Below, in pieces: positions 507 to 22,050 of a DNA stretch of 38,787 nucleotides. The stretch is from Bacteroidales bacterium (GTDB lineage Bacteria > Bacteroidota > Bacteroidia > Bacteroidales > UBA7960). Both the position numbers and the translations under genes were made by a program. Location of the stretch: assembly GCA_003567205.1 (NCBI GenBank), contig PXAA01000105.1, forward strand, positions 1 to 38,787. The letters run 5' to 3'. Position 1 is the first letter of the stretch; each line of letters begins with the position of its first letter. The notes below the pieces were generated by a model, which was not told where the DNA came from, searched no databases, and saw only the letters and a list, made by a program, of their open reading frames with translations.

Positions 507-2039
507 TCAAAATGGTACTTCATCATCGTCCATATCATTCATTTTAGACGGGATGGTGAGGGTGTTGGGTTGGTCTTCAAAAGAATCCGAGGGTCTTATG
601 TCGGTTGACACGGCAAAATCGCCGGCTTCATAGTCTGTAAATTTTGCAAAGTTTTGAATAAAACGCAGATCAATGTCTTTTAGTGCGCCATTGCGGTGTT
701 TGGCAATAATTAGCTGCGCCAGCCCTTCGGTCGAGTTGCCCTGTTCGTCTTCGGTGATCTGGTAGTATTCAGGACGATAGATAAACAAGACCATATCTGC
801 ATCCTGTTCGATGGCACCGGATTCGCGCAAATCCGAGAGGATTGGCCGTTTGGACCCTCCCCTGGTTTCTACTGCACGGCTAAGCTGTGATACGGCAATA
901 ACCGGTATATTCAGCTCTTTGGCCAGGCTTTTCATGGATCGTGATATATTGCTGATCTCCTGTTCGCGGTTACCACGGTGATTGTCCGAGCCGGTAGTCA
1001 TTAACTGCAGGTAGTCAACGACAACCAGTTGCACATTGTGCTGGGCTTTTAGGCGCCTGCACTTGGCCCTCAGCTCAAAGATGGAAAGGGCCGGTGTATC
1101 ATCAATAAATAACGGGGCATCCGTTAATGCACTCAATCGTGCATTGAGTTGTTCCCACTCATATTGTTCCAATTGTCCACGCCTGAGCTTGTTGGAAGAA
1201 AGTTCTGTTTCACTGGAGATCAAACGGGTAACCAACTGAACACCAGACATCTCCAAAGAAAAGATGGCAATGGGTTTTTTAAAGTCCACGGCCATATTCC
1301 TAGCCATGGAAAGCATTAAGGCCGTTTTACCCATACCCGGACGGGCAGCCAGTACCACAAGGTCTGATTTCTGCCATCCGGCCGTCACCCTGTCCAGTTC
1401 CGCAAAACCACTGGGAATGCCGCTGATATGGCCATCCTGATCTTTGGCGCCTTCAATTTGTTTTACCGCCTCCTTAATCAAAGAGTGCATGTCATCGTAA
1501 TTGCGCCGGAGGTTGGTTTCACTAACGGCGAAAAGCTCCTTTTCCGCTCTGTCCAGAATATCAAAAACATCCTTACTGTCTTCGTAAGATTCTTTGATGA
1601 TCTCGGAGCTGATGCGTATCAACTCACGCTGCAGAAACTTTTGCAGGATAATGCGTGCATGGTATTCCACATTGGCAGAACTGGCCACCCTGTTGGTGAG
1701 CATGGAAATAGTATAGGCGCCGCCCACAATATCCAGTTCACCGTTTTTCTTCAGTGCTTCCGTAACGGTAAGAATGTCTACGGGCTGGCCGGCGGAAAAC
1801 AACTCATGTATTGTGGCAAATATCTTTTGATGTGTTTCTTTGTAAAATATTTCGGGCTTTAAAATATCAATGACATTGGTCAGGGCATTTTGCTCCAGCA
1901 TCATCGCCCCCAAAACGGCTTCTTCCAGGTCTATGGCCTGGGGTGGGACACGTCCGTGGTCGGAATAATCCAGCGGAAGGAAGAACTTTTTATTTTTCCG
2001 GCTGGTGGCTTCACGAATCCTTTGCTCTTTCTTTTCCAT
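507..2039 (-). CDS. dnaB: Replicative DNA helicase DnaB
   Basis: 510 aa; Walker A ARPGMGKTA, VVVDYLQLM, AVSQLSRAVE, DLRESGAIEQDADMVLFIYRPEYY, N-terminal DnaB domain. Confidence 0.97.
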   Translation of the reverse strand: MEKKEQRIREATSRKNKKFFLPLDYSDHGRVPPQAIDLEEAVLGAMMLEQNALTNVIDILKPEIFYKETHQKIFATIHELFSAGQPVDILTVTEALKKNGELDIVGGAYTISMLTNRVASSANVEYHARIILQKFLQRELIRISSEIIKESYEDSKDVFDILDRAEKELFAVSETNLRRNYDDMHSLIKEAVKQIEGAKDQDGHISGIPSGFAELDRVTAGWQKSDLVVLAARPGMGKTALMLSMARNMAVDFKKPIAIFSLEMSGVQLVTRLISSETELSSNKLRRGQLEQYEWEQLNARLSALTDAPLFIDDTPALSIFELRAKCRRLKAQHNVQLVVVDYLQLMTTGSDNHRGNREQEISNISRSMKSLAKELNIPVIAVSQLSRAVETRGGSKRPILSDLRESGAIEQDADMVLFIYRPEYYQITEDEQGNSTEGLAQLIIAKHRNGALKDIDLRFIQNFAKFTDYEAGDFAVSTDIRPSDSFEDQPNTLTIPSKMNDMDDDEVPF

Positions 2040-17821: not shown

Positions 17822-18718
17822 TTATGATAAATCCGTAAATTTTGCGATGCTCTCAATAAAACTCAGCGGGATCACAGTCTCCTGGCCGGGGACATCCCTC
17901 TGTGTGATCAGAAGTTCAACCGTATTTCCCTGTTTCACCGGTTTGCCCGCAGGATATACCTTACGATGCAATAGCATCAGCACATCCGGGCTGTTTTTCA
18001 CAAATTCCGGGAGGACATCCATTGAGGGACGCCTGTCGGACATAAACCCATTGCCATGGGTAACCGATTGTGAAAACAACAAGACCGGCACTTGTGTTTC
18101 CCGGGCAACGGAACGAATGCGCTCAACAATTCGTCTCAGCTGCGCAGGACGGTCTTCATTATCCGGAATACCGGCAGTAAGCAACTCCAGATAATCAATG
18201 ATGATCAGGTCCACATGCTGCATACGCTTCAGGTGCCTTATTTTTTCTGAAAGTACATCCACCAGTAAGGCAGGCGTGTCGTCAATATAAATCTTTGCTT
18301 TGGCTATATTTCCCAGAAGCGAAAGCATATGTTCTTTTTCGCTGTCTTTCAATTTGCCCGACTGCAGCTTATCCAGAGACATTCCCGTTTCACTTTCAAT
18401 CAAACGGTTGGTCATCTTAATATTGGACCTTTCTGAAGAGAATATGGCCACCGCATAATCGTCTTTTATGGCCATGTTGTTTGCCAGGGACAATAAAAAA
18501 GCGGTCTTGCCCATACCCGGCTTAACCGCAATCATGTATAATTGTCCCGCCTGAAAACCTCCCAGCGCCCTGTCAAGCTCCTTAAATCCGCTGGGTACAC
18601 CATCAGGTGTGAGGTTTTTTCCAAAATTTTGATTGAGGGTCCGGTTTACCAGATCACGGATGCTGGTAAACCGGTAGCCCTCTGGCTGCTCGGTGATTTC
18701 CAAAGTGTTTAGCTCCAT
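17822..18718 (-). CDS. DnaB-like ATPase (RecA-fold C-terminal domain only), DnaB paralog
   Basis: 298 aa; GVPSGFKELDRALGGFQAGQLYMIAVKPGMGKTAFLLSLANNMA, AIFSSERS, IDDTPALLVDVLSEKIRHLKRMQHVDLIIIDYLELL; aligns by eye to the DnaB C-terminal domain at 507-2039 but lacks the N-terminal domain. Confidence 0.87.
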   Translation of the reverse strand: MELNTLEITEQPEGYRFTSIRDLVNRTLNQNFGKNLTPDGVPSGFKELDRALGGFQAGQLYMIAVKPGMGKTAFLLSLANNMAIKDDYAVAIFSSERSNIKMTNRLIESETGMSLDKLQSGKLKDSEKEHMLSLLGNIAKAKIYIDDTPALLVDVLSEKIRHLKRMQHVDLIIIDYLELLTAGIPDNEDRPAQLRRIVERIRSVARETQVPVLLFSQSVTHGNGFMSDRRPSMDVLPEFVKNSPDVLMLLHRKVYPAGKPVKQGNTVELLITQRDVPGQETVIPLSFIESIAKFTDLS

Positions 18719-18918
18719 ACTTCGTCATTTTTATAGTGTGAAGAATCATTCATTAATACCATACGGAAATGCAACCATGTTTGTATGGCTTAAATAATCA
18801 AGTTCCCCAATATAAGCATTTTTTTGATTCATCAGACATGAACTTTTTGAGCGAATATATGTTTAACGAGTAAATCTGCCGGAAAGCACACTTATCCTGT
18901 GCTGTAAAAATTCAGGAA

Positions 18919-19800
18919 ATGATACGCTACTCCATTAACGACCTCGAAAAACTAAGCGGCATTAAAGCGCATACCTTACGCATGTGGGAGAAGCGATATA
19001 ATATTATATGTCCAAAACGCACAGACACCAATATCCGGTATTACCACGACTGTGACCTGAAAAAACTCCTGAACATCAGCACACTCAACAAGCACGGGTT
19101 CAAGATATCCAGCATAGCTCAGATGGATGAGGCCGATATCAATCAAAAGATCATTGAAATATCCGGCACCAATGGTGATTATGCAAGCATGATCAATAAC
19201 CTGGTGCTATCGATGATCGAAATAAATGAAGACACCTTTGAACATACATTAAACAATGCCATCCTGAAGCTGGGTTTTGAGAAATGCATGACCCATGTGT
19301 TGTACCCATTTCTTGAAAAAGTAGGCATCCTCTGGCTTACAGGCACAATAAATCCAGCCCAGGAACATTTTATCACTAACCTGATCCGCCAGAAACTCAT
19401 CATTGCCATCGACGGGCAGCCCCAACCCGCCTCTCCCGACGCAAAAACATTCTTGTTGTTTTTGCCCGAAAATGAATTGCATGAACTGGGTCTTTTGTTT
19501 TACAGTTTTTTAATCAGGAAAAATGGTTTCAAAGTCATTTACCTTGGACAGTCCGTACCTTTCGAAGACATCATTGAAGTCGTTAAAATCCGCAACACGG
19601 ATTATCTGTTTACTTATTTTGTGGCAGCACTCAACCGTAAAGAAATTCCTGCTTATCTTAAACGTCTTTCGCAAAGTCTCCCGGAAAAGAAGATCTTTAT
19701 AACAGGCATACAATTGCAGAACAATGAGCTTTCTGTTTCTGACAACGTAATCTCATTCTGCGATGCGGAATCCTTTAAAAAGCTCCTGACCACACTCTGA
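18919..19800 (+). CDS. MerR-family regulator with B12-binding (CarH/LitR-like) domain
   Basis: N-terminal MerR HTH IRYSINDLEKLSGIKAHTLRMWEKRYNIICPKRTDTNIRYY; W-LTGTINPAQ-EH (Wx9EH) and ELHELG (ExHxxG). Confidence 0.9.
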   Translation: MIRYSINDLEKLSGIKAHTLRMWEKRYNIICPKRTDTNIRYYHDCDLKKLLNISTLNKHGFKISSIAQMDEADINQKIIEISGTNGDYASMINNLVLSMIEINEDTFEHTLNNAILKLGFEKCMTHVLYPFLEKVGILWLTGTINPAQEHFITNLIRQKLIIAIDGQPQPASPDAKTFLLFLPENELHELGLLFYSFLIRKNGFKVIYLGQSVPFEDIIEVVKIRNTDYLFTYFVAALNRKEIPAYLKRLSQSLPEKKIFITGIQLQNNELSVSDNVISFCDAESFKKLLTTL

Positions 19801-20040
19801 CCATTTATTTTTCAAATAACCCGCCTCCATATCTTCATTATTTTACCGCCGGTTGACATGCTTCAGTGTTTAATGGGAAAAAAACACATCTGCATTTTTG
19901 GCTTTAAAAATTTAACAAAAATTAAACAGCTTTCTTTGTATTAATGCATTTTAATACCTAATTTTATACCGCAAACAATGCATTATGTTATACAGAACTC
20001 ACATATTACTCAACATATTTTGTTAAAAAATTTTAAAATG

Positions 20041-20071
20041 TTTGCATCTTATAATTTTTTGTTTAATTTTG
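20041..20071 (+). promoter_or_regulatory. Bacteroidetes sigma-A-type promoter for the ECF sigma gene (TTTG-N19-TAATTTTG)
   Basis: TTTG 20041-20044, 19-bp spacer, TAATTTTG 20064-20071. Confidence 0.7.
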
Positions 20072-20090
20072 CTATTAAATAATTAAACAA
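20059..20090. promoter_or_regulatory. Perfect 10-bp inverted repeat overlapping the ECF promoter; candidate MerR/B12 operator
   Basis: TTGTTTAATT (20059-20068) N12 AATTAAACAA (20081-20090). Confidence 0.55.
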
Positions 20091-20110
20091 TTCGTAAAAT
20101 TCATAACGTC

Positions 20111-20611
20111 ATGACAGCAGTAGAATTCAACTATAAATTACTGGGATTGCAGAAAAACCTGAAATACTTTGCCTACACCCTGACCTCGAATTACGAAGAC
20201 GCCCAGGACCTGGTACAGGAAACCTACCTGAAGGCATTGACCAACCGGGAAAAATTCACTGCAAACACCAACCTAAAGGCATGGACCTTTACCATTATGA
20301 AAAATACCTTCATCAACAACTATCGCCAGAATGTGCGCAACAACACCATTCTGGACAAAACCGATGACCTCTACTACCTGAACCTGCCAAAAGCGAGCAG
20401 CATTGGCCTGCCCGACGCTGACTATTCATTGAAAGAAATCAATAAAACCATAGGCAAGATCAGCCCTGAGCAACGTTTGCCGTTTGAGATGTACAATAAG
20501 GGTTATAAATACAAAGAAATCGCTGAAAAGCTTGACCTGAGTATCGGCACAGTGAAAAGCCGCATATTCTTTACCCGTAAAAAACTGAAGGAAGCCCTGA
20601 AGGACAATTAA
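20111..20611 (+). CDS. ECF-type RNA polymerase sigma factor
   Basis: 166 aa; sigma2 LVQETYLKALTNREKFTANTNLKAWTFTIMKNTFINNYR and sigma4 GYKYKEIAEKLDLSIGTVKSRIFFTRKKLKEAL. Confidence 0.95.
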   Translation: MTAVEFNYKLLGLQKNLKYFAYTLTSNYEDAQDLVQETYLKALTNREKFTANTNLKAWTFTIMKNTFINNYRQNVRNNTILDKTDDLYYLNLPKASSIGLPDADYSLKEINKTIGKISPEQRLPFEMYNKGYKYKEIAEKLDLSIGTVKSRIFFTRKKLKEALKDN

Positions 20612-20655
20612 CACCGGTAAATTCCCCTTATTATATATTTCCCTTTATTGTGATT

Positions 20656-20691
20656 GAAACCCCGCCGGTAATCCGGCCGGGGTTTCTTTTT
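20656..20691 (+). terminator. Rho-independent terminator after the ECF sigma gene
   Basis: GAAACCCCGCCGG-TAAT-CCGGCCGGGGTTTC-TTTTT. Confidence 0.85.
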
Positions 20692-20707
20692 CTCAACAAA
20701 TTTTCTC

Positions 20708-20715
20708 TACATTTG
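20708..20715 (+). promoter_or_regulatory. Bacteroidetes-type -7 element (TACATTTG) for aspartokinase
   Basis: TACATTTG about 40 bp upstream of ATG 20755. Confidence 0.45.
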
Positions 20716-20754
20716 TAAGGCATTACGATCATCCTTCATCAATATAATCAAGGT

Positions 20755-22050
20755 ATGCGCGTATTCAAGTTTGGTGGGGCCTCCGTTAAAGATCCCGCCT
20801 CTGTGCAAAACGTGGCCCGGATCATCAAAGACCAGCATGGTACAGAGCCACTGGTGGTGGTGCTGTCTGCCATGGACAAAACCACCAATGCCCTCGAAAA
20901 ACTTTGTGGATGCTTTATGGAGGGAGACAAACAGGGCATGCTGATGATGTTCGAAAAGATCAAGACCATGCATTTGCAGGTGGCCCGGGGTCTTTTCCCC
21001 GACCACACCCATCCTGTGTTCAGCGTACTGGAACAATCCTTTTATCAGCTCTTTTACTATATTAACGAACCGCCCGGCAACAACTACAACTATGAATACG
21101 ATCGCATTGTATCAACCGGCGAAATGGTGTCCAGCCAGATTATCAGTACCTACCTGAAAGAAACGGGGTTGCACAATCAACTCTTTGCCGCACAGAAACT
21201 GTTTATCACCGATGCCAACTTCAGGGATGCAACTGTCGACTGGATCTTGACATCGCAGACCATACAAGAGCAGCTTATTCCTTATCTACAAAAAAGCAAG
21301 GATGCGGATCGGCCCCCGCTGGTAACCACCCAGGGCTTTATCGGGGGAACCTCCCAGGGTTTTACCACCACCCTTGGCAGGGAAGGCTCTGATTTTAGTG
21401 CAGCCATTATCGCATACGCCCTCAATGCCTCAGAACTTGTTATCTGGAAAGATGTGCCCGGTTTATTGAATGCCGATCCGAAAATTCTTAAAGACACAGT
21501 ATTGCTCGAAAACATCAGTTACCAGGAAGCCATTGAATTATCCTATTACGGGGCCACAGTCATTCACCCAAACACCCTTAAACCACTGCTGAGCAAAAAC
21601 ATTCCTCTCCGGGTTAAATCATTTGCCCACCCGTCGCTTCCGGGTTCTCTCATCAACAACAACGAATCCAATGACAAACAGGTGCCGTCCTATATTTTCA
21701 AATTCAAGCAGGTTCTGGTATCCATTTTTTCGCTGGACTTCAGCTTTATTGCAGAACATAAGCTGTCAAGAATATTCGCCGATTTTGCCAGCCATGGCGT
21801 TAAGATGAACCTGATGCAAAATTCAGCCCTCAGCTTCTCGGCCTGTTTTGACCACGACAAGACCAAAACACCAGCCCTGCTGCGCGACCTGAAAAAGAAC
21901 TTTCATGTCAAATACAATGCAAACCTTGAGCTGATCACGGTACGGCACTACACCAGGGCATGCATAGACAAATTAATCAAAGGCAGGGAGGTAGTCCTGG
22001 AACAAAAAAGCAGAACAACACTACAGATGGTGGTCAGGAAGAAGACCTGA
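20755..22050 (+). CDS. lysC: Aspartate kinase
   Basis: MRVFKFGGASVKDPASVQNVARII, TTLGREGSDFSAAIIAYALNASELVIWKDVPGLLNADP, YYGATVIHPNTLKPL. Confidence 0.93.
   Translation: MRVFKFGGASVKDPASVQNVARIIKDQHGTEPLVVVLSAMDKTTNALEKLCGCFMEGDKQGMLMMFEKIKTMHLQVARGLFPDHTHPVFSVLEQSFYQLFYYINEPPGNNYNYEYDRIVSTGEMVSSQIISTYLKETGLHNQLFAAQKLFITDANFRDATVDWILTSQTIQEQLIPYLQKSKDADRPPLVTTQGFIGGTSQGFTTTLGREGSDFSAAIIAYALNASELVIWKDVPGLLNADPKILKDTVLLENISYQEAIELSYYGATVIHPNTLKPLLSKNIPLRVKSFAHPSLPGSLINNNESNDKQVPSYIFKFKQVLVSIFSLDFSFIAEHKLSRIFADFASHGVKMNLMQNSALSFSACFDHDKTKTPALLRDLKKNFHVKYNANLELITVRHYTRACIDKLIKGREVVLEQKSRTTLQMVVRKKT

Follow-up and report, generated by a model that had tools for sequence, protein, structure and literature searches.

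In this work, we analyzed a gene for a MerR-type protein within a 38,787-nucleotide stretch of Bacteroidales DNA (the window), which raises the question of whether its product is a working light- and/or B12-responsive repressor and, if so, of which gene. The earlier note on this DNA had recognized in the protein both cofactor motifs of CarH-type photoreceptors, and had argued from their presence for a functional repressor rather than a degenerate one. The gene is:

18919..19800, + strand: CarH-like MerR/B12-binding protein, predicted repressor; 293 aa, ATG start (open reading frame, Pfam, PDB match, AlphaFold2/Foldseek and conservation).

The two motifs are indeed present residue for residue, namely W139-LTGTINPAQ-E149-H150 (Wx9EH) and E186-L-H188-E-L-G191 (ExHxxG). 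A helix-turn-helix domain (residues 4-70, with the recognition helix RMWEKRY) is followed by a four-helix bundle, which holds W139, E149 and H150, and by a Rossmann-like part, which holds H188. Pfam recognized MerR_1 (3.6e-16), B12-binding_2 (1.4e-9, residues 93-160) and, under its gathering score, B12-binding (PF02310, 3.5e-4); the top NCBIfam family was the CarH equivalog NF052513, which at 91.7 bits stayed far below the cut-off of 400. The nearest solved structures in a PDB sequence search were those of Thermus thermophilus CarH (TtCarH; E ~6e-18), and in the pairwise alignment that the earlier note had called for, W139, E149, H150 and H188 fall on W131, E141, H142 and H177 of TtCarH. The structure prediction, also proposed there, points in the same direction, as an AlphaFold2 model built from 30 homologues (pLDDT 86) was superposed by Foldseek on the TtCarH cobalamin domain with a TMt of ~0.86 and an rmsd of 2.5 Å. 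The rest of the classic B12 motif is less strictly kept, with T232-Y-F-V at SxT/V (T232 for S) and T262-G263 at GG, and the same holds for these two parts clade-wide. Of the signature of light-responsive cobalamin domains, GxxW, EH, GxxH and GxxxP (PMC11796333), the protein has GILW, EH and GQSVP, and its GxxH reads NELH; the position of this Asn (N185) is occupied by Gly in many relatives. The residue after W139, at the position of the upper-ligand His132 of CarH, is Leu140, and the R176-D201 dimer salt bridge of TtCarH is absent, with L187 and S212 as the aligned equivalents.

Among 110 aligned Bacteroidota homologues, W139, E149 and E186 are invariant, and so are R21, W23, E24 and R26 of the recognition helix RxWExRY. 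H150 is present in 108 of them, and so is H188; the remaining two proteins, from Saprospiraceae (L126 and L127), have neither His and also no neighboring ECF gene. That H150 and H188 are lost together is what would be expected of residues with a shared cofactor duty. Position 140 is occupied by Q in 73 homologues, by L in 32 and by others in 5 (Q, L, M, T, R and I were seen), and by His in none. The two Saprospiraceae proteins, which have E-N/S for EH and Q for the second His, are natural candidates for B12-independent, CarA-like regulators.

Of 59 related genomes, 45 contain matches to the protein at E values up to 1e-3, a count that includes weaker B12 or MerR matches, and a pattern-based selection in the public genome set yielded at least 592 relatives. 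The relatives are largely metagenome-assembled genomes (MAGs), and the isolate names presumably point to soda-lake sediments and mats. Full-text searches of the open-access literature found no paper describing CarH in Bacteroidota, though the gene pair described below is common there. We regard the protein as a member of a large, apparently undescribed CarH photoreceptor branch across Bacteroidota.

The residue at position 140 bears on the light step. AdoCbl is inherently photolabile. In TtCarH, His132 is the upper ligand in the light state, and the H132A variant is photolysed yet mostly stays tetrameric in the light (PMC10442372). CtMerR, with Arg at this position, is photolysed and monomerised by light, and SasPcob, with Gln, is photolysed (PMC11796333). 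His132 is thus variable among proven photoreceptors and not strictly defining for CarH, and Gln, as in SasPcob, is the commonest residue at position 140 among the homologues. Since the His132 equivalent is absent, the light step must differ from that of Thermus CarH, and release by light would proceed without a bis-His photoproduct; since CtMerR and SasPcob are photolysed without that His, and CtMerR also monomerises, a light response would be possible by another route. The motifs alone are no proof of a light response, the aligned position 140 never being His in the clade.

The likely target of the predicted repressor, overlooked by the earlier note, is an ECF sigma factor gene rather than a crt operon:

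20111..20611, + strand: ECF sigma factor, predicted target of the CarH-like repressor; 166 aa (Pfam Sigma70_r2 2.1e-15, Sigma70_r4_2 2.1e-13).

The gene after it encodes an aspartate kinase; no anti-sigma gene is evident adjacent to the ECF gene, nor a CarS-like antirepressor gene beside the carH-like gene. The ECF gene adjoins carH in most relatives whose contig extends far enough, and the pair is conserved in the genus, in sister genera and throughout Bacteroidota. The gene order in Cytophagia/Chitinophagia is carH-ECF-crtI-crtB, and crtI and/or crtB directly follow the pair in ~25 of 80 named loci, mostly from these two groups. Pontibacter carries just upstream of carH what we take, from reading the sequence, to be a crtZ-like gene.

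Divergent from carH, at 17822-18718 on the - strand, lies a gene for a 298-aa protein with the DnaB C-terminal domain and without the N-terminal part, which is conserved beside carH genus-wide; in sister genera a SiaC-family (DUF1987) gene stands between it and carH, or replaces it. A normal-looking dnaB is also present in the window (507-2039). No RNA family was found in 18000-21000.

The carH-ECF intergenic alignment showed conserved blocks within otherwise poorly alignable DNA. We predict the following elements in this region:

20042..20071, + strand: sigma-A-type Bacteroidota promoter of the ECF gene, TTG-N19-TAnnTTTG, with its -7 element TAATTTTG at 20064-20071.
20060..20089, no strand assigned: predicted inverted-repeat operator TGTTTAA-N16-TTAAACA, overlapping the -7 element.
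20021..20027, - strand: predicted upstream operator half-site TGTTAAA (footprint alignment), conserved at a fixed distance from the promoter.
19908..19929, + strand: two 11-bp direct repeats in tandem, AAATTTAACAA-AAATTAAACAG, each of which fits the CarH repeat nAnnTnnACAn.

The published CarH consensus repeat is nAnnTnnACAn, with TnnACA as the half-site (PMC8156234), and the half-site of the inverted repeat is this same TnnACA. At the sequence level, the TnnACA repeats overlap a promoter, as CarH operators do. Promoters of the TTG-N19-TAnnTTTG type (spacer 18-21) were found 23 times in the regions of 25 relatives (1.0 in shuffles), and tandem pairs 8 times in 25 regions (0.9 in shuffles), the TTTAACA part of the repeats at 19908-19929 being conserved in relatives. 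TTAAACA is present in all 82 CarH-ECF intergenics, with 220 copies as against ~24 in shuffles. Most often the copies form an inverted pair with a fixed offset of 24 bp, a geometry shared by 65 of the 82 CarH-ECF intergenics and by 21 of the 25 crt-linked loci, as against 9 among 326 other intergenics. The 1.72 Mb assembly (75% complete) contains a single site of this inverted pattern, and a backward-pattern control gave 0 there. The pattern is rare in isolate genomes too, with 2 to 5 sites per 4-8 Mb genome among named relatives; the two of Chryseolinea serpens are at the carH-ECF locus. In Marinilabiliales, where carH is without an ECF neighbor, a gene for a secreted protein stands before carH, and TTAAACA-type sites are clustered upstream of that gene (L085 ~6327, L103 ~3679).

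A different kind of element precedes carH itself:

18840..18863, + strand: ECF-type promoter GAAC-N17-GTT (GAACTTTTTGAGCGAATATATGTT), likely read by the neighboring ECF sigma factor (feedback).

It was found in 26 of 30 carH upstream regions of the genus and family (0.4 in shuffles), and we infer that the neighboring ECF sigma factor reads it. The same two kinds of element reach further genes in relatives, the operator sites in genus mates having been found blind: (i) in one genus mate (G006) the operator fronts a lycopene cyclase-blh operon (crtY-blh), with the same geometry at crtY-blh of two others (G005 and G011) if one mismatch is allowed, (ii) an operator site fronts the rhodopsin gene of G007, (iii) GAAC-N17-GTT precedes that of G005 and, with an 18-bp spacer, that of G011, and (iv) operator sites front second ECF gene copies (paralogues) in G011 and G020. 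The closest matches to the rhodopsin of G005 are sodium-pumping ones (E ~1e-121), and the G007 rhodopsin is nearly identical to it in sequence. The ECF-type promoter is seen at the rhodopsin or thioredoxin genes of only a few genus mates, and several more operator-like sites in the genus front genes for which a role in light is not evident. An operator site in G005 also fronts what we take, again by reading, to be a SOUL-type haem protein gene. Rhodopsin and blh were not found in the source MAG, which is 75% complete. As an observation in its own right, KR2-type sodium-pumping rhodopsins are present in Bacteroidales genus mates (L245, L246 and L231, from G005, G011 and G007, respectively). In three genus mates (L195, L208, L210) GAAC-N17-GTT precedes a thioredoxin pair; it was not found there in the other genus mates examined, and thioredoxin as an ECF target in these three is a weak lead.

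The crt genes of the source genome lie apart from the carH-ECF pair (C38, C145, C85), and crtI of the local crt cluster is preceded by no inverted operator and by no ECF promoter. ECF-type TGAACTTTT sites inside crtB (G000:C145, G013:C50, G014:C100) were rejected, as they are accounted for by coding-sequence conservation. Direct control of the genus crt cluster by ECF or CarH is likewise unsupported, most crtI promoters having no inverted operator and no non-coding GAAC-N17-GTT. The crtI promoters of the genus have instead a common element, TTGCAAkATATTCATTAwATTCACA, distinct from both (L153 10592-10634, with equivalents in L154, L156-L159 and L161). In the genus cluster, crtB-crtI is divergent from a second crtI, Caroten_synth, an acyltransferase and a glycosyltransferase; this second crtI is present in two copies in the assembly (L153 10634-11716 and L155 4098-5567), of which the one on C38 has the shorter reading frame (360 vs 489 aa), possibly by a frameshift or an assembly fault.

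As for cofactor supply, for which the earlier note had proposed a check of B12 uptake or synthesis, the assembly has one cobalamin riboswitch, before a TonB-dependent receptor gene, and an adenosyltransferase was not found in the 75% complete MAG. Of 7 good genus mates, 6 have a PduO-type adenosyltransferase.

Taken together, the purifying selection on the protein and the coupled loss of His150 and His188, the predicted CarH fold, the CarH-type operator and the carotenoid, retinal and rhodopsin genes that are neighbors or operator-bearing genes in relatives support the claim of a functional light-/B12-responsive repressor rather than a degenerate one, at the level of sequence and model. The gene very probably encodes a B12-based light sensor that keeps the adjoining sigma-factor gene off in the dark, and we are fairly confident in the fuller explanation that an AdoCbl-dependent CarH-type repressor would control the ECF gene and would be released by light. 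In the dark, the AdoCbl-loaded oligomer would bind the TnnACA half-sites at 20060-20089, together with those upstream (20021-20027 and 19908-19929), and would thus hide the -7 element of the ECF gene from the housekeeping RNA polymerase. Green or blue light would cleave the Co-C bond, the protein would leave its operator and the ECF sigma factor would be made, which in turn would transcribe its regulon from GAAC-N17-GTT promoters, among them carH, in a negative feedback, and the sodium-pumping rhodopsin of some sister species.

Such a protein would work like CarH and, by its architecture, like the LitR-LitS pair, and we call it CarH-like; its branch is divergent and lacks some features of the Thermus type. 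It shares with TtCarH (PDB 5C8D/5C8E) the domain order, the predicted fold, W131/E141/H142/H177, GxxxP, RxWExRY and TnnACA, but at ~22% identity it has no equivalents of His132 and of the R176-D201 pair, has N for G in GxxH, and has a predicted operator that is mainly an inverted repeat over a -7 element, with an ECF sigma gene as predicted target. Streptomyces coelicolor also couples a B12-based MerR light regulator, LitR, to an ECF sigma factor, LitS, whose transcription LitR controls (PMC12705666), a likeness that here consists of carH-ECF adjacency and the predicted operator, as read from sequence alone. However, that system is actinobacterial, LitR is described as a promoter of litS transcription in the light and LitS reads crtE (PMC12705666), whereas here repression is predicted, by way of an operator that overlaps a Bacteroidota promoter, and the crt genes of the source genome are unlinked. 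CtMerR of Chloracidobacterium thermophilum (PDB 8JBS/8JBT) has a CarH-like cobalamin domain without the upper-ligand His (PMC11796333), but differs in its Arg at that position, its ~18% identity (fold alignment) and its other DNA-binding domain. Myxococcus xanthus CarA and CarH combine a MerR with a cobalamin domain and bind TnnACA repeats overlapping a promoter; there, in contrast, CarA acts independently of B12 and has no Trp in the motif, crt genes are targeted, and a separate ECF (CarQ) pathway exists.

Other readings have to be weighed. The protein could be an AdoCbl sensor with no true light response, requiring AdoCbl for DNA binding and reporting coenzyme supply, with light barely altering its oligomeric state. 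The clade-wide lack of His at position 140, the tetramer that TtCarH H132A mostly retains after photolysis, the missing salt bridge and the sediment origin of many relatives would fit this, but we consider it unlikely given the carotenoid, retinal and rhodopsin genes around or under the operators of relatives, the photolysis of CtMerR and SasPcob (and the monomerisation of the former) without the His, and the photolability of AdoCbl itself.

It is quite improbable that the intergenic elements belong to some other regulator of the ECF gene and that the CarH-like protein acts elsewhere. The link to the operator does rest on sequence, and the main geometry is inverted, unlike that of described CarH operators, in which 11-bp repeats stand in tandem; yet the half-site is the TnnACA of CarH, perfect tandem 11-bp repeats lie just upstream, the elements go with the carH-ECF pair phylum-wide, and the RxWExRY recognition helix is conserved. 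The chances of a CarA-like, B12-independent repressor, with relic cofactor residues and release by another signal, appear smaller still. Myxococcus CarA has the B12 motif and EH and is nevertheless B12-independent (PMC9304148), and SxT/V and GG are not strictly kept in the 293-aa protein; against this, CarA is without the Trp of Wx9EH that is invariant in the 110 Bacteroidota homologues, H150 and H188 are lost only together, and no CarS-like antirepressor is evident adjacent.

Returning to the light-released, AdoCbl-dependent repressor, we tentatively extend it, with somewhat less than even confidence, to a phylum-wide CarH branch which would form no bis-His photoproduct and would relay light through a single ECF gene, and whose relay in related Bacteroidales would directly control crtY-blh and a sodium-pumping rhodopsin. 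If this is true, a CarH-ECF relay would link B12 photochemistry to light-driven Na+ transport. The many naturally occurring CarH-like proteins that have no His132 bear on the need for the bis-His state in the light response. Furthermore, a concrete predicted operator, promoter and target set make light/B12 control of carotenoids, retinal and rhodopsins directly testable in a major phylum, also in cultured strains, for instance Pontibacter populi and Chryseolinea serpens.
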